Source: Streptomyces sp. NBC_01260 | GTDB lineage: Bacteria; Actinomycetota; Actinomycetes; Streptomycetales; Streptomycetaceae | Assembly: GCF_036226405.1 (NCBI RefSeq) | Contig: NZ_CP108464.1 | Location: 6,820,001-6,884,000 of the forward strand | Direction of reading: 5' to 3' | DNA length: 64,000 nt | Shown: positions 35,931-51,840 of the stretch, in pieces | How the letters are laid out: each line of letters opens with the position of its first letter | Numbering within the stretch: position 1 is the stretch's first letter | Made by a program: the position numbers and the translations under genes | Notes under the pieces: generated by a model | Told to the model about the DNA's origin: nothing | Database searches by the model: none | The model's input: only the letters and a program-made list of their open reading frames with translations

Positions 35931-37267
35931 CGACCGCCCCGAAACAGCTGCATCTCGCCGCCCACTTCCCGGGTGTGGACAACACCACCGTCTGGGCGGA
36001 CCCCCGGTCCCGCAGCCAGATCGACTTCTCCTCCTTCGAACATCTCGCGCGTACGGCCGAACGCGGCCTGTTCGACTTCTTCTTCCTCGCCGAGGGGCTG
36101 CGCCTGCGTGAGCACAACGGGCTGATCCACGACCTGGACGTGGCCGGCTGCCCCGAGCCCCTCACCGTGCTGGCCGCGCTGGCCGCCGTCACCGACCGGC
36201 TCGGCCTCGCCGCGACCGTCAACGCCACCTTCAACGAGCCCTACGAACTGGCCCGCAGGCTCGCCACCCTCGACCACCTCAGCGCCGGCCGGGCCGGGTG
36301 GAACGTCGTCACCTCGTCCGACGCCTTCACCGGTGAGAACTTCCGCCGCGGCGGCTGTCTGAACCGGGCCGGCCTCCCCCAAGCCCTCGGCTCCGCTCGA
36401 ACAGAGGGGAACCCCCTCACCCGCGCCGCCGAACTCGTCGCCACCGCCCGCGGGCTGTGGGACTCCTGGACCCCCGACGGCACCCCGCGCCGCTTCGCCC
36501 ACCGCGGCGAGCACTTCCGCGTCGAGGGAGAGTTCACCGTCCCGCGCCCCCCGCAGGGCCACCCCGTCGTCATCCAGGCCGGGGACTCCCCGGAGGGCCG
36601 GGAGTTCGCCGCGTCCGCCGCCGACATCATCTTCACCCGGCACGGCACCCTGGAAGCGGGCCGCACCTTCTACGCGGACGTCAAGGCACGACTGGCGAAG
36701 TACGGCCGGGAGCCCGACGAGCTGAAGATCATGCCCGGCGTCGGCTTCGTGCTCGGCGACAGCGACGCCGAGGCGCAGGAGAAGGCGTCCGAGATCCGCC
36801 GTCAGCAGATCTCGCCGCAGCACGCGATGCTGGCCCTGGAGCAGGTCTGGGGCCAGGACCTCTCCTCGTACGATCCGGACGGGCCGCTCCCCGAGAGCGA
36901 CCCTGTTCCCGATGCGGCGCTGGTCCAGGGCCGGGTCAGGACCGGCGACGCCCTCGCGGTCGCGGCCCGCTGGCGCGCGCTGTCCCGGGAGAAGGGGCTC
37001 TCCATCCGGCAGACGGTCATCGAGGCGACGGGCCGGCGGTCGTTCATCGGCAGCCCGCGGACCGTCGCGGCGGAGCTGGCCGAATACGTCGCCGCCGAAG
37101 CCGCCGACGGCTTCGTCCTCGTACCGCACCTCACCCCGGGCGGGCTCGACGACTTCGTCGACGAGGTCGTCCCGCTCCTCCAGGAGCGCGGGGTCTTCCG
37201 CACCGCGTACACCGGTTCCACACTCCGGTCGCACCTCGGGCTCGCGGAGCCCGTATGGAAAGGTTGA
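35927..37267 (+). CDS. NtaA/SnaA/DszA-family flavin monooxygenase carrying an in-frame repeat insertion
   Basis: 446 aa. Family of FMNH2-dependent monooxygenases acting on nitrilotriacetate, pristinamycin precursors and dibenzothiophene sulfones. Motifs: LHLAAHFPGVDNTTVW, LDHLSAGRAGWNVVTSSDAFTGENFRRGG and VPRPPQGHPVVIQAGDSPEG (each given in part as LSAGRAGWNVVTSSD and PQGHPVVIQAGDS). After FRRGG, homologues normally run into a short link before TRAAE. Here about 15 extra residues (LPQALGSARTEGNPL) are encoded by a Streptomyces-type repeat. The insertion keeps the frame but sits close to the flavin site. Confidence 0.88.
   Translation: MTTAPKQLHLAAHFPGVDNTTVWADPRSRSQIDFSSFEHLARTAERGLFDFFFLAEGLRLREHNGLIHDLDVAGCPEPLTVLAALAAVTDRLGLAATVNATFNEPYELARRLATLDHLSAGRAGWNVVTSSDAFTGENFRRGGCLNRAGLPQALGSARTEGNPLTRAAELVATARGLWDSWTPDGTPRRFAHRGEHFRVEGEFTVPRPPQGHPVVIQAGDSPEGREFAASAADIIFTRHGTLEAGRTFYADVKARLAKYGREPDELKIMPGVGFVLGDSDAEAQEKASEIRRQQISPQHAMLALEQVWGQDLSSYDPDGPLPESDPVPDAALVQGRVRTGDALAVAARWRALSREKGLSIRQTVIEATGRRSFIGSPRTVAAELAEYVAAEAADGFVLVPHLTPGGLDDFVDEVVPLLQERGVFRTAYTGSTLRSHLGLAEPVWKG
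36373..36418 (+). repeat. Streptomyces-type intergenic repeat embedded in a coding frame
   Basis: 46 bases beginning CCTCCCCCAAGCCCTCGG and ending GGGGAACCCCCTC. From memory, near-identical units (CCCCCAAGCTCTCGGCTTCG type) are abundant between genes in Streptomyces. Here the unit is translated inside a monooxygenase gene. Identity to other copies was not searched. Confidence 0.65.
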
Positions 37268-37271
37268 GCCC

Positions 37272-38072
37272 ATGAGCACGGACGCACAGCAGCAGGCAGC
37301 GCGGGACTGGGACCACTGGCACGAGGAGCGCACCGCCACGGTCTCGGCACCGTACGGACCGCTCTCACTCACCGGCACGCACTGGCTCTCCGACTACCCG
37401 GAAGGCCGAATTCCGGCCATTGAGGGGCAGTGGCGGGAGGACGGCGACGAGCTGGAGCTCACCGCCGGTCCCGAGGACGGGCTGACCGTCGACGGGAAGC
37501 CGTTCACCGGACAGGTCCGGCTCGGCGCCGACCGCGGTCCGATCGGCGGGTCCCGGGTCGCCCACGGCGAGCGGCGGCTGTTCGTGCTGAGCCGAGAAGG
37601 GCTCTGGGCGGTACGGGACTTCGACCCGGACTCCGCGGCGCGGCGGGCCTTCCGCGCGATCCAGGCCACGCATTACGACCCGCGCTGGGCGCTGCCCGGC
37701 ACCTTCCGCCCGTACGACACCTCCCGCACCGTCCGGGTCGAGAACGCCGACGGCGTCGAGCGCGGACTCGGCCTCGGCGGGGAGATCGCCTTCGAGCTGG
37801 ACGGCGTCGAGCGGACGCTCCAGGTCGCCGTGGAGCACGACGGCTCGCTCTGGGCGGTCTTCGCCGACGCCACCAGCGGGAACAGTAGCTACCGCTTCCG
37901 GTTCCTGCGGCCCGCCGCCCCGGCCGCCGACGGCACGGTGACGGTCGACCTCAACCGTGCGCTGCTGCCGCCCTGCGCCTTCGCGGACCACTTCATCTGC
38001 CCCTTCCCGCCGCCCGGCAACACCCTTCCCGTGGCCGTCGAGGCGGGGGAGCGGAACCGGGTCGACGGCTGA
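37272..38072 (+). CDS. DUF1684 domain protein
   Basis: 266 aa; ATG four bases after the monooxygenase stop. The sequence has the DUF1684 pattern: WHEERTATVSAPYGPLSLTG near the N-terminus, RDFDPDSAARRAFRAIQ in the middle. The C-terminus has the conserved LNRALLPPCAFADHFICPFP (PPCAF and the Cys-Pro pair). No known activity; soluble, beta-rich. It closes the permease / oxidoreductase operon, followed by a strong hairpin. Confidence 0.85.
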   Translation: MSTDAQQQAARDWDHWHEERTATVSAPYGPLSLTGTHWLSDYPEGRIPAIEGQWREDGDELELTAGPEDGLTVDGKPFTGQVRLGADRGPIGGSRVAHGERRLFVLSREGLWAVRDFDPDSAARRAFRAIQATHYDPRWALPGTFRPYDTSRTVRVENADGVERGLGLGGEIAFELDGVERTLQVAVEHDGSLWAVFADATSGNSSYRFRFLRPAAPAADGTVTVDLNRALLPPCAFADHFICPFPPPGNTLPVAVEAGERNRVDG

Positions 38073-38095
38073 ATCACCGCCTCCGTTCCGGCGAT

Positions 38096-38132
38096 GTCCG
38101 GCCCCGGCCCGCGTGGTGTGCCGGGGCCGGAC
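38096..38132 (+). terminator. Terminator after the DUF1684 gene
   Basis: Perfect 13-bp stem GTCCGGCCCCGGC / GCCGGGGCCGGAC (38096-38108, 38120-38132) with an 11-base loop. Confidence 0.8.
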
Positions 38133-38220
38133 GCATGGGTGCGGGGCAAAGCTCAGGCCAAGAGGCCCTCTTGCGCGGGAAGTTGACGCCTTGAATACTC
38201 CCGAGCAGCGCTTGTCAGGA

Positions 38221-38256
38221 GCACGGCAGATCCGGAATCCGGTCAGCCTGCCGTGC
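38221..38256 (+). promoter_or_regulatory. Hairpin in the leader of the protease gene
   Basis: GCACGGCAG (38221-38229) pairs with CTGCCGTGC (38248-38256), enclosing CCGGaatCCGG. About 70 bases before the protease start; possible mRNA-stabilising or operator structure. Confidence 0.35.
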
Positions 38257-38326
38257 GGCTGACTGCGCCTCACGGGTCCGGCCACCCCACGGGCGGACCC
38301 CCAACCCCCCTCGGGAGGAATGACAA

Positions 38327-39226
38327 GTGAGGATCAAGCGCACCACCCCCCTCAGCGGTACCGCGAGACGCAGCAGGGCTGTTGCCATTGCCGCAGGTCT
38401 CATAGCGGTCGCCGCGCTCGCCGTCCCCAGCGCACAGGCCAGCTCCCCCGGAACGTACAGCGCGAACCAGCTCTCCGCCGCAGCCGACGCCGTCCTCGGT
38501 GCCGACGTGGCCGGCACCGCCTGGACCGTCGACCCCGCGACCAAGAAGGTCGTGGTCACGGTCGACAGTACGGTCTCCGCGGCGGAGATCCAGCAGATCA
38601 AGGACTCCGCGGGCGCCAACGCGGGCGCCCTGAGTGTCGAACGCACGTCCGGCAAGATCCGCAAGCTGCTCTCGGGCGGTGACGCTGTCTACGGGCCCGG
38701 CTTCCGCTGCTCCCTGGGCTTCAACGTCCGCAGCGGCAGCACCTACTACTTCCTGACGGCCGGCCACTGCACCGAAGGCAGCCCGCCGTTCTACAGCAAC
38801 TCGTCGAACTCGACGAGCATCGGTGCGACGGTCGGGTCCAGCTTCCCGACCAACGACTACGGCCTGGTGCGCTACGACAACGCCTCGGTCTCCCACGAGG
38901 GCACCGTGGGCAGCGTCGACATCACCAGCGCGGCCAATGCCACGGTCGGCATGTCCGTCACCCGCCGGGGCTCCACCACCGGCATCCACAGCGGTACGGT
39001 CTCCGCGCTCAACGCCACGGTCAACTACGGCGGCGGTGATGTCGTCTACGGCATGATCCAGACCAACGTGTGTGCGGAGCCCGGTGACTCCGGCGGTCCG
39101 CTCTACTCCGGCTCCAAGGCGATCGGCCTCACCTCGGGCGGCAGCGGCAACTGCTCCTCGGGCGGCACGACGTTCTTCCAGCCGGTCACCGAGGCGCTCA
39201 GCGCGTACGGCGTCAGCGTCTACTGA
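38327..39226 (+). CDS. Secreted streptogrisin-type serine protease (S1/S2A, alpha-lytic class)
   Basis: 299 aa, the length of streptogrisin B precursor. GTG start with GGGAGGA upstream. Signal peptide about residues 1-38 ending at AQA, a short pro-region to about 115, then the mature chymotrypsin-like domain. Catalytic His in FLTAGHC, Asp in PTNDYGLV, Ser in [10 protein letters not shown]. Three Cys pairs are placed as in streptogrisins. A paralogue lies at 50424, on the other side of the FxSxx block. Confidence 0.94.
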
Positions 39227-39292
39227 CACCCGGGCGGCCGGTTCCGTCCCCCGGGACCGGCCCCTGCCTCGAAAGGGCAAGTCGAACACGCC

Positions 39293-39323
39293 GAGCCCCC
39301 GCCCGAATTCCGGGCGGGGGCTC
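39293..39323 (+). terminator. Terminator after the first protease
   Basis: Perfect 13-bp stem GAGCCCCCGCCCG / CGGGCGGGGGCTC with loop AATTC. Confidence 0.85.
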
Positions 39324-39399
39324 CCGCTGACCCCGCGGCTTTTGAGAGGATGTGGCACAGGACGGTCGCGCAGGAACAACGGGGGCGGACACTGTGCCT

Positions 39400-39420
39400 C
39401 CCGGAGGGATGCCCTCCGGG
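39400..39420 (+). promoter_or_regulatory. Perfect hairpin upstream of the SLOG-family gene
   Basis: CCCGGAGGG-atg-CCCTCCGGG, nine paired bases with a 3-base loop, 36 bases before the GTG. It is part of a C/G-rich block (39395-39445) that reads like a dispersed Streptomyces repeat. It could terminate read-through or occlude translation. Confidence 0.4.
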
Positions 39421-39455
39421 AACCCCCGGCAGAGACCCCAGGGGGATCCAGGTCC

Positions 39456-39935
39456 GTGAATCGCATCGGAGTGACCGGCCACCGCAGCATTCCGCGAGAG
39501 GTGCACGCCCATGTGCTGGCCGCGATGCGTGCGGCGCTCAGCGCCTTCGACGGCTCGGTGGAGGCACTGTCCAGCCTGGCCGTGGGGGCGGACCAGCTCT
39601 TCGCCGACCTCGCGCTCGCCCACGGCGCCGAACTGACCGCGGTCATCCCCAGCGGCGACTACGAGGCCTGCTTCGCCGACGGCGCCGAACTGGCCCGCTA
39701 CCGGAGCCTCAAGGCCCGCGCCGCGCGGGAGGTCCGGCTGGACTACCCGCACTCCACCGACGAGGCGTACTACGCGGCCGGCGCCTATATCGCCGACCAC
39801 TGCGACCGGCTGCTCGCCGTCTGGGACGGACTGCCCGCCCGCGGCCTCGGCGGCACGGGCGACATCGTGACCTACGCCCGTGAGCTCGGCCGCCCGGTCA
39901 CGGTGATCTGGCGCGACGGGGTCGTACGCGCCTGA
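39456..39935 (+). CDS. SLOG-superfamily (YspA/YpsA-like) nucleotide-binding protein
   Basis: 159 aa from GTG 39456; SD weak. N-terminus NRIGVTGHRSIPREV is the glycine loop of the SLOG/Rossmann group. It is followed by SLAVGADQLFADLALAHGAE, ELTAVIPSGDYE and CDRLLAVWDGLPARGLGGTGDIV, a typical SLOG C-terminal strand and loop. SLOG domains sense or make nucleotide-derived ligands and are often paired with SLATT membrane effectors. Here the next gene, on the opposite strand and 26 bases away, encodes exactly that. The ligand is unknown. Confidence 0.78.
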   Translation: MNRIGVTGHRSIPREVHAHVLAAMRAALSAFDGSVEALSSLAVGADQLFADLALAHGAELTAVIPSGDYEACFADGAELARYRSLKARAAREVRLDYPHSTDEAYYAAGAYIADHCDRLLAVWDGLPARGLGGTGDIVTYARELGRPVTVIWRDGVVRA

Positions 39936-39961
39936 CCTGACCGGGGCGGCCGCTCGGTCCG

Positions 39962-40888
39962 TCACATCTGGTGCCGGGCCAGCCAGTCGGTGTGCTGGGG
40001 GGAGACGATGCGCTCGGTCTCGAACACCGCCCGCGGCCACTGGCGCTCGTTCAGCGTGGTCTCCATCGCGACCTGCATCGACTCGAGATCCTTCTCCACC
40101 AGGGAGTGGGCCGAGATGAGCGGGTGGTGGCGGCGCATCTCGGCCCAGGCCAGACAGGCCGCGGCGGCGGCGGACAGCACCCCGGTCAGCGCGAAGGACT
40201 GGCCCACGGAGAACGCCCTGAACAGGGCGAGGACCAGGGCGAGAGCCGTCAGGGCGGCGATGGTGGTCGACCAGACCACGGTGGCCCGGCGGGACACCTC
40301 CTGGCGCCTGCGGTACCAACTGCGCTGTTCGATCAGCCGGTCCCGTACATAGGTCTCCTTGCGCACGGTGAATGCCTTGTCCCGTAATGCGTGCATGGAA
40401 TCGGTGATGAGACCTCCGGAATCGGCGGTCCGGTCCCGGGGATCGGACCAGCCCACCTTGCGGAGCTCCTGGAGGCCCTCTTCGAGGCGATTGGCGAACA
40501 CCGCCTCAGGGTGCTGGGTGCCGGTGTCGAAAGGTGAGCCGTGCACGGAGTAACGCCAGCACATCGATTTGATGAACTCCGCCGCGGAGCGATTAAGTTG
40601 CCAATGCGACTTTGCTTTCCGCCGAGAGGTGAGGTAGGTCGCGATCAGGACGCCCAGGTAGGCCAACGCTGCCGCGCAGTCGCTGAGTTGGAGCCTGCCC
40701 GCGACCTCGGCGCGCCAGGGGAGCGCGGCCGGTACGGTGCCCGCGACCAGCAGTATCAGCTGCCAGCGGGTGGTATTCACGGCCTCCCGCTGGCGTGCGA
40801 CCGCAATGGCATCCGTGTGGTGAAAGAGCTCGGGCAGATCAGCGTTCCTGAAGACCATGCTCTGCAGTGGTCCGGGAATCGCCGTCAT
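39962..40888 (-). CDS. Tandem SLATT (DUF4231-type) membrane protein
   Basis: 308 aa from ATG 40888, which has GGGAG five bases upstream; a GTG at 40894 is too close to that SD. Two units can be seen, each with a helix pair. Unit 1 has WQLILLVAGTVPAALPW and AALAYLGVLIATYL, followed by SAAEFIKSMCWRY. Unit 2 is preceded by YVRDRLIEQRSWYRRR and has TTIAALTALALVLALF and TGVLSAAAAACLAW. It ends with SPQHTDWLARH, typical of SLATT_1. SLATT proteins are predicted pore-forming or membrane effectors in conflict systems. An in-frame TTA codon lies at 40385-40387. Divergent from fxsA. Confidence 0.8.
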   Translation of the reverse strand: MTAIPGPLQSMVFRNADLPELFHHTDAIAVARQREAVNTTRWQLILLVAGTVPAALPWRAEVAGRLQLSDCAAALAYLGVLIATYLTSRRKAKSHWQLNRSAAEFIKSMCWRYSVHGSPFDTGTQHPEAVFANRLEEGLQELRKVGWSDPRDRTADSGGLITDSMHALRDKAFTVRKETYVRDRLIEQRSWYRRRQEVSRRATVVWSTTIAALTALALVLALFRAFSVGQSFALTGVLSAAAAACLAWAEMRRHHPLISAHSLVEKDLESMQVAMETTLNERQWPRAVFETERIVSPQHTDWLARHQM

Positions 40889-40925
40889 GTTCACTCCCGT
40901 CTGCGGTTATGTGGTCACTCCGATG

Positions 40926-40944
40926 GCGGAACCTGTAGTTCCGC
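40926..40944. promoter_or_regulatory. Perfect interrupted palindrome between the SLATT gene and fxsA
   Basis: GCGGAAC-ctgta-GTTCCGC: 7-bp arms with a 5-base spacer, 38 bases upstream of the SLATT start. It is either an operator for the divergent pair or a stem-loop in the SLATT leader. Confidence 0.55.
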
Positions 40945-40996
40945 TTGATCGGGGCAGGTCCCGTGTGACGCTCTTGTTCCAAGTAGCCGTCCTCAG

Positions 40997-41024
40997 TTGC
41001 CAACCGAGGCCATGAGAGTAAAGT
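40997..41024 (+). promoter_or_regulatory. Candidate promoter for fxsA
   Basis: TTGCCA (40997-41002), a 16-base spacer, TAAAGT (41019-41024), in the AT-richest part of this intergenic region. Predicted start near 41031, about 85 bases before the fxsA GTG. Confidence 0.45.
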
Positions 41025-41114
41025 CGTGCCGCCGGACACTGCAATGGTGCAGGTACCAACGCTGGTTTCCTGTCCGGAACCATTCCATTGGAACGAACCC
41101 CCTCAAGGACGGCC

Positions 41115-41282
41115 GTGAAGACCTCTGAATCCTCCCTCTCCTTCGCCGTTGCGAAGAAGAGCCGTGTGCCGCTCACCGCGATCGACGCGCGTGGTGGCGA
41201 AGCTGCCAGGAAGCTCGGTCGGGTGCATGTCGCCTCCGCCGGTCGCTCCCTCCGGGCAGCCACCTTCAACTCCGCCCTCTGA
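41115..41282 (+). CDS. fxsA: FxsA: FxSxx-COOH RiPP precursor peptide
   Basis: 55 aa from GTG 41115, with AAGGA five bases upstream. The peptide ends AATFNSAL and thus has the F-x-S-x-x-COOH terminus that defines the precursors of this system. FxsB-type radical SAM enzymes modify the terminal Phe/Ser region, by cyclophane formation according to family knowledge. Residues 1-45 are a leader rich in Ser, Ala, Arg and Lys with no signal peptide. fxsB starts 74 bases downstream on the same strand. Confidence 0.9.
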   Translation: MKTSESSLSFAVAKKSRVPLTAIDARGGEAARKLGRVHVASAGRSLRAATFNSAL

Positions 41283-41356
41283 CCCCGTACGACGGATCAC
41301 TCCTCCGGTGCGGCCGGTTGCCGGATCACCCCTTCCGGGCTGGCTAGACTGGGTGA

Positions 41357-43594
41357 ATGACAGGACCCCTGGTCCCTTTCCGTGAAGTAGTTCTCAAGGT
41401 TCACAGCAGGTGCGACCTTGCCTGTGACCATTGCTATGTCTACGAACATGCCGATCAGAGCTGGCGAACCCGTCCGAAAACAATCTCTGATGGAGTCATT
41501 TTCCGGACTGCTCAGCGCCTGGCTGAGCATGCCAAGACACACGCACTGCCCTCCGTGTCAGTAATCCTGCACGGAGGGGAGCCTCTGCTCGCCGGCCCCG
41601 CCCGGCTGCGGCGCATCTGCGAAGAGCTGAGTTCCGCCTTCGACGGCGTCGCCGCGCTCGATCTCCGGATCCACACCAACGGTCTGCAGCTCAGCCCGCG
41701 CTATCTCGACCTCTTCAGCGAGTACGACGTCAAGGTCGGCATCTCCCTCGACGGCGACCGCGCGGCCAACGACCGCCACCGCCGCTTCGCCGACGGACGC
41801 AGCAGCCACCCCCTGGTGCTCAAGGCCGTCGAACTGCTCCGGCAGGAGCGCTACCGCCATCTCAACCTCGGTCTCCTGTGCACCATCGACATCGAGAACG
41901 ACCCGCGCGCGGTCCTGGACGCCCTCACCGAACTCGAACCGCCGCACATCGACTTCCTGCTTCCCCACGCCACCTGGGACGACCCGCCGCCGCGTCCGGA
42001 CGGATCGCCCACCGCCTACGCCGACTGGCTCCTCGCGGTCCATGACCGCTGGCAGGAGCTGGGGCGGCCGGTTCCGGTGCGGATCTTCTCCTCGGTCCTC
42101 TCCACGCTGAACGGCGGACCGAGCCTCACCGAGTCCCTGGGCCTGGCCCCCACGGACCTCGTCGTCGTCGAGACCGACGGGAGCCTGGAACAGGTCGACT
42201 CGCTCAAGAGCGCCTACGAGGGCGCGGCGGCCACCGGGTTCGACGTCTTCACGCATGCCTTCGACGAGGTCGCGGCGCATCCCGGGGTGCGGGCCAGACA
42301 GCTGGGGCTGGCGGGCGTCAGCGAGACGTGCCGCCGCTGCCCCGTCGTACGCTCGTGCGGCGGCGGCCTGTACACCCACCGCTACAGCTCCGCGGGTCCG
42401 GACGAGGGGTTCGACAACCCGTCCGTGTACTGCCACGATCTCGCCGCCCTGGTGCGCGGCATCGAGGCCCGTACGCCGGCGGACTCGGTCGCGCCCGCGG
42501 TGGCCGATCGCGGCGAACTGCTCGCGGCCCAGGAGGACCTCACCCGCACGCTGCTGGCGCGGCTCAACGGAGACCTGGACGGCCGGGGCGGCGAGCGGTG
42601 GGCGGCGGCATGGGAACTGGCGGCCGTTCTGGACGGCTCGGAGCAGGGTTCCGGCGGCCTGGACCACGTGCTCGCCCACCCGTACACCCGCACCTGGCTG
42701 CTCGACGCGCTGGACGCCTTGCACGAGGACCGGCCGGGGGCCGCCTCGGACGCCGCGGACGGCCTGCCGGCCCGTCTGGCGGCCGCCGTCGTGCGGGCGG
42801 GGCGCGACGTCTGGGTGCCGGTGCCCTACCGGGACGGTGGGCTGGTCCTGCCCACCCTGGGCCGGGTGGCCGTCGACGGTGCGGGGGAGCACGGCACGGC
42901 CCGGGTGCGCGCCGTCGAGGGCGGCTTCCTGATCGGGCGGGACGGGGGATCGGGCGAGCGGCGGATCGAGTGGCCCGGACCGGCGGTCCCCGGCTGGCTT
43001 CCGGTGCGCGGGTACGCCCTGCCCGGGAGCGGGCCCGGCTTCGTGATCGACGACCTCGATCCGTACCGCGACTGCTTCGCCGAGCCCGCCGCGGCCGCGC
43101 TCGACGCGTCAGCGGCCGGCCGGCTGGCCGCCGCGCTCACCGGGGCCTGGGCGCTGATCGAGGAGCGGGCTCCCGAGTACGGAGCGCGCTCCGCCGGCGG
43201 ACCGCTGACGCTCACGCCGCTGACCGGCCTGAAGCCGGGCGAAGCCTCCGTGGGGCGGCACGGGCACGGCGCGCTGGGCATCGGAGCGGACGACGAGGCG
43301 GGAACGCTCGCTCTCGCGCTGGTGCGCGGAGTACGGCGGGCCGGATTCCGCGCACTTGTGGACGTCACGGATCTTTACGCGGCGGACGGCTCCTGGGAAC
43401 ATCGAATGCCCTGGGGGGAGGAATTGGTTCCGTTTTCCCGGTTGTTGGCGGGTGCATATGAACGGCTGGCGCTCGCGGCATTCGACCCCCGGTATCGGGA
43501 CGGAGTGCCGCAGGCGCTCGACACGCTGGAGGGGGCGGCCGAACTCACCGTCGGCGGGAAACAGCTGCTGACCCTGATGCGGAAAGAATTCTGA
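41357..43594 (+). CDS. fxsB: FxsB: radical SAM/SPASM peptide maturase with degenerate HExxH C-terminal domain
   Basis: 745 aa. Radical SAM cluster motif C19-x3-C23-x2-C26 (RCDLACDHCYVYEHADQSW, diagnostic for FxsB). SPASM-like Cys cluster around 324-360 (CRRCPVVRSCGGG). Residues from about 400 are an extension of the type that in other proteins is an aKG-HExxH peptide hydroxylase. At the equivalent position this protein reads R657-G-V-R-R661, so both metal-binding His and the Glu are absent and the domain is probably structural or peptide-binding. The first ~70 codons and last ~40 codons use far more A/T third bases than the middle. Modifies FxsA. Confidence 0.93.
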   Translation: MTGPLVPFREVVLKVHSRCDLACDHCYVYEHADQSWRTRPKTISDGVIFRTAQRLAEHAKTHALPSVSVILHGGEPLLAGPARLRRICEELSSAFDGVAALDLRIHTNGLQLSPRYLDLFSEYDVKVGISLDGDRAANDRHRRFADGRSSHPLVLKAVELLRQERYRHLNLGLLCTIDIENDPRAVLDALTELEPPHIDFLLPHATWDDPPPRPDGSPTAYADWLLAVHDRWQELGRPVPVRIFSSVLSTLNGGPSLTESLGLAPTDLVVVETDGSLEQVDSLKSAYEGAAATGFDVFTHAFDEVAAHPGVRARQLGLAGVSETCRRCPVVRSCGGGLYTHRYSSAGPDEGFDNPSVYCHDLAALVRGIEARTPADSVAPAVADRGELLAAQEDLTRTLLARLNGDLDGRGGERWAAAWELAAVLDGSEQGSGGLDHVLAHPYTRTWLLDALDALHEDRPGAASDAADGLPARLAAAVVRAGRDVWVPVPYRDGGLVLPTLGRVAVDGAGEHGTARVRAVEGGFLIGRDGGSGERRIEWPGPAVPGWLPVRGYALPGSGPGFVIDDLDPYRDCFAEPAAAALDASAAGRLAAALTGAWALIEERAPEYGARSAGGPLTLTPLTGLKPGEASVGRHGHGALGIGADDEAGTLALALVRGVRRAGFRALVDVTDLYAADGSWEHRMPWGEELVPFSRLLAGAYERLALAAFDPRYRDGVPQALDTLEGAAELTVGGKQLLTLMRKEF

Positions 43595-43667
43595 ATACCG
43601 GATTCCGGTTCGAGGAAGACCGCCCGCGGAGTCGGGACAACTGGGAGGAACGGGCGCAGACCGAATC

Positions 43668-43685
43668 CGATCACGAGTGTGATCG
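43668..43685. promoter_or_regulatory. Palindrome in the fxsB-fxsC gap
   Basis: CGATCAC-gagt-GTGATCG, 7-bp perfect arms, in a 235-base AT-richer gap. It may be an operator or hairpin giving fxsC-fxsT its own control. No good small ORF is seen in this gap. Confidence 0.4.
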
Positions 43686-43829
43686 ATAGGGGCTGGGCGC
43701 AGATGACTGAAAAGTGGCGTTGAATGACCGAACGCCATGGGGGTGGAGCAAGGTCCGCTCCGGAATGATGAATTCGCTCGCATTCTCTTCACTCATCGAG
43801 TGCGGGTGCTCACACAGGACGGGGGTCGT

Positions 43830-45164
43830 GTGCACGCGACGACGCAGCAGCGAGCGGCGGACCATCGGCCGTACTTCTTCTTGAGCTACGCCCACACACC
43901 GGGGTACGGCGGTGGAACGGACCCCGACATGTGGGTCGAACGGCTCTTCCAGGATCTCTGCGGCCATGTGATGGCCATGACCGATCTGCCCGCCGGCGCG
44001 CCGGCGGGGTTCATCGACCGCGAGATACGTTCCGGCGAGGGCTGGTCGGAACGGCTCGGTGAGGTGCTCGCCACCTGCCGGGTGTTCGTCCCACTGTTCT
44101 CGCCGCGCTACTTCGCCAGCGAGATGTGCGGCAAGGAGTGGTACGCCTTCGCCCAGCGCGCCATCCACTACCGGGCCCGCTCCAACCAGTCGGCCGAGGC
44201 GATCGTCCCGGCGCTCTGGGTGCCGGTACCGCCCAGCCAGCTCCCCGGACCGGCCGAGCGATTACAGTTCAACCACCGTGATTTCGGGGACCGTTACGTC
44301 AGCGACGGGCTGTACGGGCTGATCAAGCTCAGGCTCTTCGCCGAGGACTACGAGCGCGCGGTGTACGAACTCGCCAAGCGCATCGTCAGCGTCGCCGACA
44401 CGGTACGGATCGGCACCGGCCGGCCCGTCGACTACCGGCTCGCCCCCAGTGCCTTCGGCTCGACGGGCAGCGGAGCCGGCGGACCCCGCCCGATGCAGGT
44501 CACCATCGCCGCCGCCACCCGCCACGACCTGCCCGAGGGGCGCAACGCCGACTACTACGGCGACAACCCGCAGGACTGGAACCCCTACCATCCGGATGCC
44601 GCACGCCCCCTGGCCTATGTCGCCGAGGACCTGGTGCGCTCCCTCAACTACCAGGCCACCGTCGCGTCCTTCGACGAGGAACCCGGCCACCAGGGAGGCA
44701 AACAGCCCCCGACCACGCCGGAGATCCTGCTCGTCGACCGCTGGGCGCTCCAGGACGAGGACCGGTGCCGCCGGCTCGCCGCCTTCGACGCGGAGAACCG
44801 CCCCTGGGTGACGATGGTCGTCCCGTGGAACCGCGACGACCACGAGAGCAGAGCCGCCGAGGCGGAGCTGACCGCGAAGCTCGAACGGACCATGCCGACC
44901 AAGATGCGCCAGGGGCGGGCCTACTGTCGCGCCGCGGCCAAGGGGGTACCGAGCATGGAGGCCTTCGGCCAGATCCTGCCGCAGGTGGTCGAGGTGGCCG
45001 CCCAGCAGTACCTGAGACATGCGGCCGTCTATCTGCCCGCCACCGGCGGCGGAGGTCACACCGAACGGACGCGGCTGATGGGACCCATGGCGCAGACCCA
45101 GTACATCCCTGGAACACATGACGCTGCGACGGATGCGGAGGACACGGATGACGGCCAGTCGTGA
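43830..45164 (+). CDS. fxsC: FxsC: TIR-like protein of the FxSxx-COOH system
   Basis: 444 aa from GTG 43830. The frame is open to ATG 43737, but that stretch has AT-rich, non-Streptomyces codon use; AGGA at 43816-43819 supports the later start. Residues about 12-190 are TIR-like: PYFFLSYAHTPGYGGG, then CRVFVPLFSPRYFASEMCGKEW (in part FVPLFSPRYFASEMCGKEW) and ALWVPV. The C-terminal half (about 225-400) is a second alpha/beta domain starting MQVTIAAATRHDLP. Residue 145 is encoded by TTA (44262-44264). It overlaps fxsT by 17 bases. Proposed role: NAD-dependent or signalling effector; unproven. Confidence 0.9.
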   Translation: MHATTQQRAADHRPYFFLSYAHTPGYGGGTDPDMWVERLFQDLCGHVMAMTDLPAGAPAGFIDREIRSGEGWSERLGEVLATCRVFVPLFSPRYFASEMCGKEWYAFAQRAIHYRARSNQSAEAIVPALWVPVPPSQLPGPAERLQFNHRDFGDRYVSDGLYGLIKLRLFAEDYERAVYELAKRIVSVADTVRIGTGRPVDYRLAPSAFGSTGSGAGGPRPMQVTIAAATRHDLPEGRNADYYGDNPQDWNPYHPDAARPLAYVAEDLVRSLNYQATVASFDEEPGHQGGKQPPTTPEILLVDRWALQDEDRCRRLAAFDAENRPWVTMVVPWNRDDHESRAAEAELTAKLERTMPTKMRQGRAYCRAAAKGVPSMEAFGQILPQVVEVAAQQYLRHAAVYLPATGGGGHTERTRLMGPMAQTQYIPGTHDAATDAEDTDDGQS

Positions 45165-48100
45165 CGGGCGCATCGTCACCTTCTACTCGTACAAGGGCGG
45201 CACCGGGCGCACCATGGCCCTTGCCAACACCGCCTGGATTCTCGCCGCCAACGGCAAACGGGTACTGGCTGTCGACTGGGATCTGGAGGCGCCCGGCCTC
45301 CACCGGTTCTTCCACCCGTTCCTCGACCCCTCGACCCTCGGTGCCACCACCGGCGTCATCGATCTGATCACCGAGTACGCCTGGGCCGCGACCAGCCCGG
45401 TGCAGCGGGCCGACGACTGGCACCGGGAGTACGCCCGGATCCAGCCGCACGCGGTCTCCCTCACTCCCGAGGCGCTCGGCTGGGAGTTCCCGCAGGGCGG
45501 AACGCTCGACTTCGTCTCCGCCGGACGGCAGAACCGCGAATACTCGGCGACCGTCTCCACCTTCGACTGGGACAACTTCTACGACCGCCTCGGCGGCGGC
45601 CACTTCTTCGACGCGCTGCGCGACGACATGAAGGCCAACTACGACTACGTCCTCATCGACAGCCGCACCGGTCTCAGCGACATCGCCGACATCTGCACGG
45701 TCCATCTGCCCGACGTGCTCGTCGACTGCTTCACCCTCAGCGACCAGTCCATCGACGGCGCCGCCTCGGTCGCCCGGCAGATCTCCGAGCGGTACACCGG
45801 CCGCCAGATCTCCATCTTCCCCGTCCCGATGCGCATCGACGAGGGCGAGAAGGAGAAGGCGGACGCCGGACGGGCCCTGGCCCGGCTGAAGTTCGACCGG
45901 CTGCCGCGCGATCTGTCCGGCGACGAACTCACCGCCTACTGGGGCGCGGTGGAGATTCCGTACCGCCCCTACTACGCGTACGAGGAGACACTCGCCACCT
46001 TCGGGGACGAGGCGGGGCTCACCAACTCGCTGCTCTCCGCCTTCGAACGGCTCACCTCCGTCATCACCGACCGGCAGATCACCTCGATGCCCCCGATCGG
46101 CGAGGAGGTACGGCTGCGCATCCGTGACGCGTTCACGCGGCGCCGGCCCGCCCTGCCCGCCGACCTCTTCCTCTGCTACGTGGCGGAGAACCGGATGTGG
46201 GCCGACTGGATCGAGTCCGCGCTCACCCGGGCCGGCTTCCGGGTCGTGCCGCGTGATGTGTCCGCCGAGCGGGGGCCGCAGGAACCCGCGGCCGTCACCG
46301 CCGAGAACGCGGCCCGGACCGTGGTGCTGCTCTCCAGCGCCTACCTCAAGTCGCAGCGTGCGGTGAGCCTGTGGGACCGGGCCGTCGCCGAGGACCCGGG
46401 CGGCGGGCGGCGCCATCTGGTGCCGCTCAGGGTCGGTGACGTACGGCTGTCCGCGCCCTACATCGACCGCAACCCCGTCGACCTCTTCCGGCTCGACGAG
46501 GTGCACGCCACAGCTGCCCTGTTACGGGCCCTGGACCGGCCCGTGCAGGTCACGGACGGGGTGTCGCCCGGACCGCGCTTCCCCGGAACCGTCCCGCGGA
46601 TCTGGAACGCACCGCCGCGCAACCCCGGATTCACCGGCCGCTCCATGGTCCTGGAGCGGATGCGCGACCAGCTCGGCGGCGGCATGGCCGTCGTGCTGCC
46701 GCAGCCGCAGACGCTGTACGGGCTCGGCGGCGTCGGCAAGACCCAGGTCGCCCTGGAGTACGTGCACCGGTTCATGGCCGACTACGACCTGGTCTGGTGG
46801 ATATCGTCCGAGCAGACCGACGACGTGGTCGCCGGTCTCGCCGAACTCGCCGTCCGGCTCGGTGCCCAGGGCGGTGACGACATGGCGGCCGCCTCCCAGG
46901 AGGCGGTCGACCTGCTGCGGCGCGGGGTGCCGTCGGACCGCTGGCTGCTGGTCTTCGACAACGCCGACGACCCGGAACGGCTCCGCCGCTACTTCCCGCA
47001 GGGCGGCTCCGGGCACATCCTGGTCACCTCCCGCAACCAGGCCTGGTCCCAGCACGGCGACGCACTGCCCGTCGACGTCTTCATGCGTGAGGAGTCCATC
47101 GAACACCTCCAGCGCCGGGCACCGGGGCTGAGCGACGAGGACGCCGCCCAGGTGGCCACCGCGGTGGGGGACCTGCCGCTCGCCGTCGAACAGGCCGCGG
47201 CCTGGATCGCGGAGACCGCCACCCCGATCGACACCTATCTGGAACAGCTGGCCCAGCAGGCGCCGGAGGTCCTGGCGCTCAACCAGCCGGCCGGCTACCC
47301 GGAGCCGGTCGCCGCGACCTGGAACATCTCCATCGAACGCCTCAAGGAGCGCTCGCCCGCCGCGGTGCGGCTGCTCCAGCTCTGCGCCTTCTTCGCCCCC
47401 GAGCCGATCTCGGGGAACCTGCTGTACAGCAAGGAGATGATCGAGGCGCTGAAGCCGTACGACGCCTCGCTCCAGGAGAAGCTGGTACTGGGCCGGGTCA
47501 TCCGGGAGATCGGCCGGTTCGCCCTCGCCAAGGTCGACCAGGTCTCCAACTCCATCCAGGTGCACCGGCTTGTCCAGGCCGTCATCCGGGCGCAGCTCAG
47601 TCAGGAGGAGCAGCGGGACGCCCGGCACGCCGTCCACCGCATTCTGGCGGGTGCCCGGCCCGATGACGACGAGCCGATCGACAACCCGGCCAACTGGCCC
47701 CAGTTCGCCACCATATGGCCGCACCTCGGCCCGTCCGACGCGCGCAACTGCAAGGAGCCGGAAGCCCGCAGGCTGCTGATCGACCGGGTCCGCTACCTGT
47801 GGAAGCGCGGTGACTTCAGGACGGCCACCACGCTCTGCGAGGAGCTGCGCGAGATCTGGCGCGAGACGCTGGGGGAGCGGGACATCCAGTACCTCTACCT
47901 CTGCTTCCACCTGTCCAACATCTACCGCTCGCGCGGCCGTTACGTGGAGGCGAGGGAGCTCGACGAGATCACCCTGGCGACCCAGCGGGAGGTGCTGGGC
48001 CCGGAGCATCCGCACACGTACATGAGCACCAGCAGCCTGGCGACGGACCTCGGGACGCTCGGGGAGTACACCCGGGCGATCGAGCTGGCGACCGAGGCGA

Positions 48101-49083
48101 CCGACGGGTTCAACCAGATCTTCCACGACTCGCACCCCAGGGCCCTGGCCGCGGCCAACAACCTGGCGTTCACCCTGCGGTCCATCGGCCAGTACGCCAA
48201 GGCACGCGAGATCGACCAGGACGTCTTCGACCGGCGCCGGGAGGTGCTCGGCGAGGAACACCCCTACAGCCTCTCCTCGGCCATGAGTCTGGCCCGCGAC
48301 CTGCGTGACGTCGGCCGGTACGAGGACTCGGTGGGCCTGCTGAGCCGTACGTACGACAGCTACAAGGCCACCCTCGGCCGGTCCTTCCCCGGCACCCTCA
48401 GCGCGGCGAAGGCCCTGGCCGTGTCGCTGCGCCGGGCGGGGCGGCTGGAGGACGCCCGCCGGCTCACGGTGGCGACCCGGGCCCGGTACCGGGCCAAGTA
48501 CACCTCCGCCAACCCGGAGTCGCTGGCCTGCGATCTCAATCTGGCGGCCGACCTGTTCGCGGCCGGAGAGGCGGGCGAGGCCAGGGATACCGCCCGGGAG
48601 GTCGTCGACCAGTACATGAAGGTGCCGGGAGAGAAGCATCCGTACACTCTGGCCGCGCTGAACAACCTGGGCGTCTACCTCCTGGGGGCCGGTGAGGCCG
48701 AGGAGTCGGAGCTGGTGCTGACCCGGGTGGTCGCCTCGATGCGGGAGGTGTACGGGCGGGAGCACCCCAACACGCTGTTCAGCGTGATGAACCTGGCCAA
48801 CACCACCGCGGACCGGGGCGATCTGGACCTGGTGCTGGTGACCGAGCGGCAGCTGGCCGGACAGTTCCGGGTGGCCCTGGGGGCGCATCACCCGGAGACA
48901 CTGGCCATGAAGTCGAACATGGCGGTCACGCTCGACGCCATGGGGCGCAAGGACGAGGCGCTCCAGATCAGGGCGGAGACGGTCGAGGAGCTGACCCGGC
49001 AGCTCGGCGACGAACATCCGCTCACCCGGATCGCCCGGGACGAGCGCCGGTTCCAGCGTGAACTGGAACCGCTCGCGGTATGA
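45148..49083 (+). CDS. fxsT: FxsT: ParA-like / TIR / NB-ARC / TPR protein of the FxSxx-COOH system
   Basis: 1311 aa from ATG 45148 (GGAGG six bases upstream; ATG 45118 is less likely). Domains in order: ParA/MinD-like NTPase with FYSYKGGTGRTMALANTAW at residues 12-30 and LIDSRTGLSDIADI; TIR-like segment about 335-460 starting ADLFLCYVAENRMWADWIE; NB-ARC STAND ATPase about 510-800 with P-loop YGLGGVGKTQVALEY and WLLVFDNADD; TPR repeats from about 885 to the end, with the recurring GxxHPxT pattern of kinesin-light-chain-type TPRs. Residue 459 is encoded by TTA (46522-46524). The architecture is that of a sensor-effector. Closed by a bidirectional terminator. Confidence 0.93.
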   Translation: MTASRDGRIVTFYSYKGGTGRTMALANTAWILAANGKRVLAVDWDLEAPGLHRFFHPFLDPSTLGATTGVIDLITEYAWAATSPVQRADDWHREYARIQPHAVSLTPEALGWEFPQGGTLDFVSAGRQNREYSATVSTFDWDNFYDRLGGGHFFDALRDDMKANYDYVLIDSRTGLSDIADICTVHLPDVLVDCFTLSDQSIDGAASVARQISERYTGRQISIFPVPMRIDEGEKEKADAGRALARLKFDRLPRDLSGDELTAYWGAVEIPYRPYYAYEETLATFGDEAGLTNSLLSAFERLTSVITDRQITSMPPIGEEVRLRIRDAFTRRRPALPADLFLCYVAENRMWADWIESALTRAGFRVVPRDVSAERGPQEPAAVTAENAARTVVLLSSAYLKSQRAVSLWDRAVAEDPGGGRRHLVPLRVGDVRLSAPYIDRNPVDLFRLDEVHATAALLRALDRPVQVTDGVSPGPRFPGTVPRIWNAPPRNPGFTGRSMVLERMRDQLGGGMAVVLPQPQTLYGLGGVGKTQVALEYVHRFMADYDLVWWISSEQTDDVVAGLAELAVRLGAQGGDDMAAASQEAVDLLRRGVPSDRWLLVFDNADDPERLRRYFPQGGSGHILVTSRNQAWSQHGDALPVDVFMREESIEHLQRRAPGLSDEDAAQVATAVGDLPLAVEQAAAWIAETATPIDTYLEQLAQQAPEVLALNQPAGYPEPVAATWNISIERLKERSPAAVRLLQLCAFFAPEPISGNLLYSKEMIEALKPYDASLQEKLVLGRVIREIGRFALAKVDQVSNSIQVHRLVQAVIRAQLSQEEQRDARHAVHRILAGARPDDDEPIDNPANWPQFATIWPHLGPSDARNCKEPEARRLLIDRVRYLWKRGDFRTATTLCEELREIWRETLGERDIQYLYLCFHLSNIYRSRGRYVEARELDEITLATQREVLGPEHPHTYMSTSSLATDLGTLGEYTRAIELATEATDGFNQIFHDSHPRALAAANNLAFTLRSIGQYAKAREIDQDVFDRRREVLGEEHPYSLSSAMSLARDLRDVGRYEDSVGLLSRTYDSYKATLGRSFPGTLSAAKALAVSLRRAGRLEDARRLTVATRARYRAKYTSANPESLACDLNLAADLFAAGEAGEARDTAREVVDQYMKVPGEKHPYTLAALNNLGVYLLGAGEAEESELVLTRVVASMREVYGREHPNTLFSVMNLANTTADRGDLDLVLVTERQLAGQFRVALGAHHPETLAMKSNMAVTLDAMGRKDEALQIRAETVEELTRQLGDEHPLTRIARDERRFQRELEPLAV

Positions 49084-49088
49084 GGAAG

Positions 49089-49120
49089 CGGGAGCGTCCG
49101 GCCGTCGCCGGACGCTCCCG
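49089..49120. terminator. Bidirectional terminator after fxsT
   Basis: Perfect 14-bp stem CGGGAGCGTCCGGC / GCCGGACGCTCCCG, loop CGTC, between fxsT (+) and the alpha/beta hydrolase (-). Confidence 0.85.
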
Positions 49121-49130
49121 CCCCCGCTGC

Positions 49131-50006
49131 TCACCGCTCCGTCGTGTCCAGCAGCCAGGTGAGGATCCGGGGGAGCGCGTGCAGCGCGTCGAAATGCGCT
49201 GCCGCCGGCTCCACCACGACGGTGGCGCCCGGAATGCGGCTCGCCAGCCAGCGGGTGTGCCCGACCGGTGAGAAGACGTCCTTCTCGCCGTGCCACAACA
49301 GCACCGGACCGGTGATGTCGGCCGGGTCGAACCCCCAGGGACGGCTGAACGCGAGCGCGTCGTCGATCCAGCCGTACGCCGAAGTGCGCAATCCCTCACG
49401 GTAGTTCCGCAACAGCATGGTGCGGACGCCGGCGTCGTTGACCACCATCCGGTCGGAGTCGGTCAGCTCCCGGCGCAGATCGTCGATGAGCCGGACCGGA
49501 TCCCTTCTGATCACGGCGGACCGTGAGATGAACGACTCCGCGAGCCCGTCCGGATCGTCGGCCGCAGTGGTGTACGCCTCCACATTGGAGGCGGCCATCC
49601 CGTCGAACCAGTCGAGGCCGACGGCGTCCCAGGGGGCCAGACCCACCAGGGCCGCGGTACGGGTGACCCGTTCGGGCATCAGCGCGGCGCAGGCCAGGGC
49701 GTGAGAGGCGCCGCCGGACCGGCCCACGACGGCGAACTGTTCGATCCCGATATGGTCCGCGATGGCCCGGACGTCCTCCACCGCGTCGGCGACACAGCGG
49801 CCCGGCTGCCGGTCGGAATCGCCGTATCCCGGCCGGTCGTAGGTGATCAGCTGCGTCTTGCGCTGGTAGAGCACCATGCCGCGCGGAGCCGGCCCGAGCC
49901 TGCTGCCGGGCATTCCGTGCAGCAGGAAGACCGGTCTGCCACGAGGATCCCCCAGACGTTCCACCACCAGTTGCCGTCCGTCGGTTGCGCGCACGCGACT
50001 GCGCAC
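49131..50006 (-). CDS. Alpha/beta hydrolase
   Basis: 291 aa, GTG start with AAGGAGG seven bases upstream on the minus strand. Fold markers: VFLLHGMPGSRLGP oxyanion loop, TYDRPGYGDSDRQPGR, nucleophile elbow VVGRSGGASHA (Ser), and the late HGEKDVFSP and AAHFDALH supplying Asp and His. No signal peptide, so intracellular. Substrate unknown. A 13-base palindrome TGATGGaCCATCA lies at 50067-50079, upstream of its start. Confidence 0.87.
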   Translation of the reverse strand: MRSRVRATDGRQLVVERLGDPRGRPVFLLHGMPGSRLGPAPRGMVLYQRKTQLITYDRPGYGDSDRQPGRCVADAVEDVRAIADHIGIEQFAVVGRSGGASHALACAALMPERVTRTAALVGLAPWDAVGLDWFDGMAASNVEAYTTAADDPDGLAESFISRSAVIRRDPVRLIDDLRRELTDSDRMVVNDAGVRTMLLRNYREGLRTSAYGWIDDALAFSRPWGFDPADITGPVLLWHGEKDVFSPVGHTRWLASRIPGATVVVEPAAAHFDALHALPRILTWLLDTTER

Positions 50007-50423
50007 TCCGCGCCTCCTTGTGTCCGTGCGGGCACGACGTGCCCGGCTTTCCCCGCAATGATTCGATGATGGACCATCAAAGCGCTTATTGGGACTGCGC
50101 GTTGAACGAATACGGGGCGCGTCGAGGGGGCGCGCGGGCGCGATTTCGCCGGACGCATCGACAACCGGACCCGCAGGGGTGAATACCGGACAGGACTAGT
50201 CCTCACCCGCTGCTGAACGGACGATCGCACCGGGTGTTCGCAGAAGGGATCGGCAAGGCCTGACCTCCGGTAAGTGAACGCGAGGAGACCGAAGGGGTGT
50301 TGTCATGTGTGCGTCCTGAAGTCGGCCTTGTGTGCTATCTGCTCCGTCGGAATAGTGGGCGCCCCATCCTCCGTGTACGGGCGACCCCACATCACCCGTG
50401 CGCGGCCCCACAGGAGGTCGAAG
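50007..50423. other. Divergent intergenic region between hydrolase and protease
   Basis: 417 bases without a convincing gene. Contains the palindrome TGATGG-a-CCATCA (50067-50079), which could be an operator for the hydrolase gene, and the leader of the protease gene. Nothing else is recognisable. Confidence 0.5.
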
Positions 50424-51509
50424 TTGAAGCATCGACGCATATCCAGGAAGCGTGCAGTGCTGGCGGGTTCGGCGGTGGTCGCCCTGGTCGCAGCGGGAGC
50501 GACGTTCCAGAGTGCGAACGCCAGTGAAGGAACGCCTGAGGTCACCGCGCGGACACTGACGGCCGACGCGGCCGGAAAGCTCGCCACCGGTCTGGGGAAG
50601 GACCTGGGCGCCGACGCGGCGGGTTCGTACTACGACGCCAAGTCGAAGAACCTGGTGATGAACGTGGTCGACCAGGCCGCCGCCGAGCAGGTGCGGCAGG
50701 CGGGCGGCCGGGCCAGAGTCGTGCAGAACTCGCTCGCCGAGCTGAAGTCGGCCCGGCAGACCCTGGCCGGCAAGGCCGCGATCCCCGGCACCTCATGGGC
50801 CGTCGACCCGGTCAGCAACAGGGTCGTCGTCACCGCCGACCGTACGGTCAAGGGCGCCGAGCTGAGCCGGCTCAGCTCGGTGGTCGAGGGGCTGGGCGGC
50901 AAGGCCCGGCTCAAGAAGTCCGCCGGGGAGTTCAAGCCGCTCATCGCGGGCGGCGACGCGATCTGGGGCGACGGCGGGCGCTGCTCGCTCGGCTTCAACG
51001 TGGTCAAGGGCGGCGAACCGTACTTCCTGACCGCCGGGCACTGCACCGAGGCGATCTCCAACTGGTCGGACTCGCAGGGCGGCGGGGAGATCGGCACCAA
51101 CGCGGGCTCGGATTTCCCGGACAACGACTTCGGGCTGGTGAAGTACACCTCGGGCACCGCGCACCCCAGCGAGGTCGACCTCTACAACGGCTCCACCCAG
51201 CCGATCACCAAGGCGGGCGAGGCGACCGTCGGGATGACGGTGACGCGCAGCGGTTCCACCACCCAGGTGCACGACGGCCAGGTGACGGGGCTGGACGCCA
51301 CGGTCAACTACGGCAACGGCGACATCGTCAACGGGCTGATCCAGACGACGGTCTGCGCCGAGCCCGGCGACAGCGGCGGCTCACTCTTCGCCGGTGACAC
51401 GGCGATCGGGCTGACCTCGGGCGGCAGCGGCGACTGCTCCTCGGGCGGCGAGACGTTCTTCCAGCCGGTGCCGGAGGCGCTGGCGGCCTTCGGGGCGGAG
51501 ATCGGCTGA
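50424..51509 (+). CDS. Secreted streptogrisin-type serine protease with long pro-region
   Basis: 361 aa from a TTG start at 50424, strongly supported by AGGAGGTC five bases upstream. Signal peptide about 1-34 ([15 protein letters not shown], ending SANA). A pro-domain of about 135 residues is longer than in the paralogue at 38327 and resembles streptogrisin C/D-type precursors. Mature domain from about 170 with [15 protein letters not shown] and [10 protein letters not shown]. The paralogue has Pro after GDSGG where this enzyme has Ser. Confidence 0.93.
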
Positions 51510-51528
51510 CAGCTCTTCCCGCAGTGGT

Positions 51529-51559
51529 GAATGGCCCCCGGCGATGCCGGGGGCCATTC
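51529..51559 (+). terminator. Terminator after the second protease
   Basis: Perfect 14-bp stem GAATGGCCCCCGGC / GCCGGGGGCCATTC with loop GAT. Confidence 0.85.
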
Positions 51560-51765
51560 CTCTGTGTTCGCGCGGGTGCGAGGCGCGGTCAACGAGGGCC
51601 CCCGCGTCTGCGCCTGCTCGCCGAGCCCGCGGTGCTCGGCCGCCGCGCGGACGTGAAGACGGTTGTGAGGGGGAGAGGGGAGAGAGAAGGGTGCCGACGG
51701 GTCTTTTGCCCCCCCTGAAGGCACATGCTCGCTAATGCTCGAAACGTGATGGCGATGAACAACTC

Positions 51766-51795
51766 TTGACATGTCGCGGACATTCCCGCGAGAGT
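51766..51795 (+). promoter_or_regulatory. Candidate promoter for the GH109-like operon
   Basis: Perfect -35 TTGACA at 51766-51771, 18-base spacer and GAGAGT at 51790-51795, about 45 bases before the ATG. The preceding 200 bases (from 51560) contain no gene that I can support. Confidence 0.45.
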
Positions 51796-51840
51796 CGTCC
51801 ACGCCAGTGATGCCGGTCGAGTATCGAGGAGCGTTGTCGC

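Follow-up and report, generated by a model that had tools for sequence, protein, structure and literature searches.

Conserved joining of a SLOG-SLATT pair to the FxSxx-COOH system at a Streptomyces locus

The 64,000-nucleotide stretch of Streptomyces sp. NBC_01260 analyzed here (contig NZ_CP108464.1, positions 6,820,001 to 6,884,000; hereafter the window, in whose positions all module coordinates are given) carries a locus at which a SLOG-SLATT pair lies next to an FxSxx-COOH peptide system. The pair consists of a stand-alone SLOG-fold protein of 159 residues, assigned from its predicted model (39456-39935, plus strand), and a tandem SLATT membrane protein of 310 residues, in which Pfam profiles recognize SLATT_3 and SLATT_1 (39962-40894, minus strand). 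A divergent intergenic region of 220 bp with a conserved promoter-like block (40895-41114) separates the SLATT gene from four fxs genes on the plus strand. These encode FxsA, a 55-residue FxSxx-COOH precursor peptide with the C-terminal end FNSAL (41115-41282; TIGR04268); FxsB, a radical SAM/SPASM maturase with a C-terminal extension of the inactivated HExxH type (41357-43594; TIGR04269, NF040587); FxsC, with an N-terminal TIR domain followed by an FxsC_Cterm domain (43737-45164; NF040588, TIGR04276); and FxsT, with KGGVGR/ParA-like, TIR, NB-ARC, and TPR parts (45118-49083, although the start may be at 45148; NF047398, NF040586). An earlier, sequence-only reading had listed these six genes at 39456-49083, and all six are indeed present. 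It had omitted a conserved partner, an alpha/beta hydrolase gene convergent with fxsT (49131-50006, minus strand; PF00561). The comparisons described below support a conserved joining, at the level of the locus, of two known conflict modules, SLOG-SLATT and FxSxx.

The assignments of 39962-40894 to SLATT and of 41115-49083 to fxsA-B-C-T, both proposed in that reading, are borne out by profiles over cut-off. The tandem SLATT protein matched PF18184 (1.5e-37, 129.7 bits) and PF18181 (7e-36, 123.4 bits) against a cut-off of 26.3 bits and has hydrophobic stretches at residues 70-88 and 204-251. In the literature, SLATT proteins are predicted to form a pore in response to a nucleotide (PMC7159879, PMC9503650). 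FxsA scored 31.5 bits with TIGR04268 (cut-off 28), which identifies a precursor peptide of the FxSxx-COOH system. FxsB, with a CxxxCxxC motif at residue 19, reached 588.9 bits with TIGR04269 (cut-off 370) and 415.8 bits with NF040587, and FxsC 243.4 bits with TIGR04276 (cut-off 55) and 233.7 bits with NF040588 (cut-off 130). FxsT reached 1030.2 bits with NF040586 (cut-off 300), with further matches to NF047398 and to TIR_2, NB-ARC, and TPR in Pfam.

The call of SLOG for the gene at 39456 held only in part. The protein gave no match over cut-off in Pfam, NCBIfam, or PADLOC (PF02481, 11.6 versus 29.6 bits), but it was modeled with a mean predicted local distance difference test score (pLDDT) of 93.6, and the structural matches of the model were YpsA, DprA, and LOG. 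In 24 aligned relatives the motifs TGH and GGT are invariant and GAD is nearly so. By its predicted structure, the 39456-39935 protein has a SLOG (YpsA/DprA/LOG) fold, a statement about the fold and not about a named profile family.

The two TIR domains of the locus differ at one position. FxsC carries Glu134 in an S-Y-S-x-C-xx-E stretch, which we take to be the catalytic glutamate of TIR enzymes that cleave nicotinamide adenine dinucleotide (NAD). E134 is present in 101 of 105 aligned FxsC sequences and C131, three residues upstream, in all 105, whereas the TIR domain of FxsT has leucine or valine at the matching position in 89 of 106; many rows of both alignments are close relatives. A weak alignment (E 1.3) also pairs E134 with a glutamate of the TIR protein 3h16. 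The P-loops of the ParA-like and NB-ARC parts of FxsT are nearly invariant in its 106 sequences. Retention of the glutamate in FxsC, its replacement in FxsT, and the conserved P-loops of the latter point to FxsC as the predicted TIR NADase and to FxsT as the switch. Two plasmids carry, downstream of AAA/MoxR-family ATPase genes, genes for large proteins whose C-terminal part is the FxsC domain; these very large proteins (L205, 4605-9179; L206, 9181-13194) belong to ternary-type systems.

In the region between the SLATT gene and fxsA, a promoter-like block, GAGAGTAAAGTCGT-CCGCC, recurs in almost every one of 45 aligned regions, the shorter ones (150-400 bp) of 74. Searched with up to two mismatches allowed, the block has a single match in its own genome, which fits locus-specific control and is no proof of shared control.

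The sequence-only reading had proposed tabulating the neighbors of fxs genes, and in Streptomyces such a count shows almost perfect co-occurrence. Among 372 genomes, with four weak SLATT genomes left out, SLATT was found in 107 and FxsC in 129: both in 106, SLATT only in one, FxsC only in 23, and neither in 242 (Fisher p 1e-68, uncorrected for relatedness). Among the matches listed, at least 93 of 110 strong SLATT rows had FxsC on the same contig, 86 of the 93 within 10 kb. In all 86 close pairs Fxs is located 5′ of SLATT, 67 times divergently and 19 times on the same strand; the same-strand arrangement in L040-L043 reflects an inversion of the fxs block between SLATT and the hydrolase. Within a set of 200 Streptomycetaceae genomes, all 24 SLOG matches with E ≤ 4.1e-39 lie within 414 bp of SLATT, and FxsC lies within 5 kb of 19 of the 23 strongest SLATT rows, within 10 kb of 21, and within 20 kb of 22. 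The remaining row (G094, locus L049) has fxsC ∼3.6 kb away by tblastn.

The linkage is in part synteny. The 66 named Streptomyces SLATT loci, several on contigs that end early, contain SLOG (66), fxsB (65), the hydrolase (59), and fxsT (58), together with a flanking protease (61) and a DUF1684 gene (58). A set of ten divergent loci (L045-L054) separates the module from its surroundings. Genes flanking the module in the window occur as likely orthologs only in L047; L045 has one distant match to the flanks (33 percent) and L051 one match to an ABC transporter (37 percent). SLOG, SLATT, and fxs genes are nonetheless kept in all ten, with a spacing of ∼12 kb in L053, and the hydrolase is kept in seven, not being seen in L052, L053, or L054. 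In eight loci from other genera, a SLATT protein of 27-31 percent identity adjoins the hydrolase with fxsT nearby, and the two of these that were scanned have the same SLATT_3 plus SLATT_1 make-up. A locus from another family (L201, from G289, whose FxsC scores below cut-off) has the order hydrolase-fxsT-fxsC-TIR-AAC(3)-fxsB-SLATT; this divergent SLATT_1 protein (3.2e-15) beside fxsB argues for a functional tie. The TIR gene in that order (8664-9422), which follows fxsC and precedes the AAC(3)-like gene, encodes a second TIR-domain protein.

The alpha/beta hydrolase (PF00561, 4.6e-21; also serine aminopeptidase S33, PF12146, 4.1e-9) belongs to the module. Of 41 sources (the window and 40 loci), 32 have it clustered with fxs genes, and it adjoins fxsT in four of 13 loci outside the family that lack SLATT, as well as in L201 and L202. 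In L060 (3167-5100), two tandem SLATT genes stand beside it, with a second fxsT further along. An AAC(3)-like acyltransferase gene, present in 22 of the 41 sources and confirmed by Pfam in one (1.5e-70), sits between fxsB and fxsC in many relatives and is absent from the window and its nearest relatives. Examples are an Antibiotic_NAT gene in L039 (8407-9186) and, in L052 (10643-12463), a 606-residue frame that follows a short fxsB and carries the AAC(3)-like part at its C-terminal end.

FxSxx systems containing an AP-ATPase with a ParA/MinD-like domain have been described from actinobacteria (Kaur et al., 2020, PMC7159879). The stand-alone FxSxx-COOH system of that paper, fxsABCT, corresponds to the FxsA-B-C-T proteins found here over NCBIfam cut-offs, including the AP-ATPase; at the present locus SLOG, the tandem SLATT, and a conserved hydrolase are attached. 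In its main text SLATT is mentioned three times, always in sections on GAP1. The literature matches listed gave no link of SLATT or SLOG to FxSxx, although a mention in the 2015 SLOG/SLATT paper is possible. Nucleotide-centered conflict modules of SLOG and SLATT were reportedly defined in that year by Burroughs et al., whose work PMC7159879 cites. They share with this locus a SLATT protein with a nucleotide-related partner, here the SLOG-fold protein; the present pair differs in being tied to a ribosomally synthesized and post-translationally modified peptide (RiPP) and to TIR/STAND proteins, and in a SLOG group that no Pfam or NCBIfam model matches over cut-off.

Thoeris, which pairs the TIR protein ThsB with a SIR2-SLOG or TM-macro ThsA (PMC11204291), shares the concept of a signal produced by a TIR protein and received by either a SLOG domain or a membrane effector. 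The two differ: here SLOG and the membrane component are encoded as individual proteins, and a STAND sensor and a RiPP are present. Neither a SIR2 nor a macro domain was found in the module proteins with Pfam and NCBIfam, and PADLOC gave no Thoeris match; FxsC reached only 11.7 of the 220 bits required for NCBIfam ThcB4. Likewise, no vWA or MoxR of a vWA-MoxR ternary system was found in the module proteins, the hydrolase, or three scanned neighbors. In firmicute phages a TIR gene adjoins SLATT, which is predicted to react to derivatives of ADP-ribose (PMC9503650), and the phage defense of DRT10 requires SLATT (PMC12632851). These have in common with the present locus a SLATT beside a TIR gene or needed for defense; unlike here, the parts of those papers at hand describe no RiPP, STAND, or SLOG partner.

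Taken with the glutamate pattern of FxsC and FxsT and the plasmid FxsC fusions, the TIR-SLATT neighborhoods and DRT10 make a TIR-made signal acting on SLATT the most economical reading. We therefore favor, tentatively and at a little under an even chance, a conflict-type system, serving immunity or self-monitoring, of two linked blocks in which SLATT is the membrane output driven by a TIR signal. The first block, fxsA-B-C-T with the hydrolase, would be the known stand-alone FxSxx system, and the second, SLOG with the tandem SLATT, would be a membrane output stage. FxsB would cross-link FxsA into a cyclophane. Activation of the STAND sensor FxsT would come from a trigger or from an alteration of the modified peptide, with the glutamate-less TIR domain of FxsT perhaps serving as a docking surface. 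Once licensed by FxsT, the TIR domain of FxsC would cleave NAD to yield an ADP-ribose-type signal. This signal may open the SLATT pore, so that the cell is stopped or killed, and the SLOG protein would bind, sense, or remove it and so set the threshold. In a more specific form, which we regard as doubtful, a missing or altered modified peptide would lead FxsT to trigger FxsC, the NAD-derived product would open the tandem SLATT pore, and SLOG would act as a signal buffer; if true, it would be the first case of nucleotide-signaled membrane killing under the control of a RiPP. That the SLOG-SLATT pair adjoins the FxSxx genes in many Streptomyces suggests the membrane as the place of action of the FxSxx system. 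The conserved partnership with a predicted TIR enzyme, a predicted pore, and a protein of SLOG fold would give the FxSxx cyclophane peptide a concrete output in NAD use and membrane flux. The locus also offers a specific promoter-like element that can be monitored, and strains with natural half-loci separate the two blocks.

Several observations weigh against a TIR signal driving SLATT, and most of them bear on another possibility, to us rather unlikely, that SLOG-SLATT forms a conflict cassette of its own, sharing no more than a chromosomal site with FxSxx, and no signal passes between the blocks. Much of the Streptomyces co-occurrence reflects a single syntenic site, the whole neighborhood being syntenic in most of the named loci, so the Fisher value overstates independence. 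Either block is also found without the other. Seven genomes (L117, L147, L155, L157, L161, L191, and L193; L190 and L192, apparently duplicates of the L117 and L157 records, were excluded) have SLOG-SLATT at a locus that lacks fxsC and fxsT. Remnants of fxsA and fxsB or whole genes persist in L117, L147, L155, and L161, and no fxs gene or hydrolase was seen at the locus in L191 and L193. The ratio of nonsynonymous to synonymous substitution rates (dN/dS) in these seven, measured to the nearest complete locus, was 0.10-0.26 for SLATT (six of seven above the control median of 0.11) and 0.12-0.39 for SLOG (three of seven above 0.20), with 22 control pairs for each. SLOG and SLATT remain intact where fxsC and fxsT are missing, so they may act alone. 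Conversely, G626 (L189) kept the hydrolase and fxs genes, while one deletion truncated SLATT and SLOG at their 3′ ends, so that only SLOG 1-40 and SLATT 12-45 still give matches; no SLATT was seen in seven further FxsC-bearing Streptomyces loci. The Streptomyces SLATT of G125 (L055), 33 percent identical, has no fxs gene or SLOG nearby. SLATT was found in none of 13 fxsC loci from other families, nor was it seen in L202, which is of the same genus as L201 and has fxs genes. Of 296 genomes sampled across the class, 26 had FxsC over cut-off and 16 had SLATT_3, and no genome outside the family passed both cut-offs. SLATT is thus not a general partner of FxsC. Against a mere shared site, just one of the 107 SLATT genomes lacks any FxsC, and the linkage holds despite different flanks (L045, L046, L048-L052, and L054) and in the 19 rows with the fxs block inverted; distant SLATTs also adjoin fxs genes in other genera and another family. 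As the blocks occur apart, an obligate six-gene machine is unsupported. What survives of the single six-gene module first proposed is a linkage conserved even in divergent loci, in two separable blocks with a hydrolase and often an AAC(3)-like gene added.

Other points also count against the signaling reading: no phage-related evidence was found for the locus, the FxsC model is poor (pLDDT 57.6), and PADLOC returned only a weak viperin-like match for FxsB and PDC-M28B for the FxsT ATPase. A role outside defense, which we consider improbable, would make the cyclophane peptide an exported or membrane-active developmental signal or a bacteriocin-like product, with SLATT, SLOG, the hydrolase, and the AAC(3)-like enzyme protecting the producer or processing the peptide. 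FxsA and FxsB are RiPP genes, the hydrolase could process the peptide given its match to the serine aminopeptidase family, and the AAC(3)-like gene is present in many relatives and, in L052, fused to the stretch behind a short fxsB. No exporter family was found, however, among the module proteins with Pfam or NCBIfam, and in L056 and L067, which contain SLATT, hydrolase, fxsT, and fxsC, no fxsB was detected. To our knowledge, TIR and STAND-TPR proteins are untypical of RiPP export, which also speaks against such a product. Equally improbable in our view are two parallel effectors, the TIR domain of FxsC killing by NAD depletion and the SLOG protein, as a LOG-like nucleotide hydrolase, making the signal for SLATT; the resemblance of the SLOG protein to LOG besides YpsA and DprA, and the C-terminal position of FxsC in the plasmid proteins behind ATPase genes, would be in keeping with this arrangement.

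Outside the module, an alpha-lytic-type serine protease gene lies on each side (38327-39226 and 50274-51509). The proteases were rejected as module genes: the first is present in 61 of the 66 named loci but in only one of the ten divergent loci, L047, and is therefore read as local synteny. A tRNA-Ser called by ARAGORN (50762-50851, minus strand) lies inside the second protease gene and is probably a false call, Rfam being empty over 36000-52500. On an Agrobacterium plasmid (L207, 1-4864), a SLATT-related DUF4231 gene lies near TRAFs-binding and TIR-domain genes.
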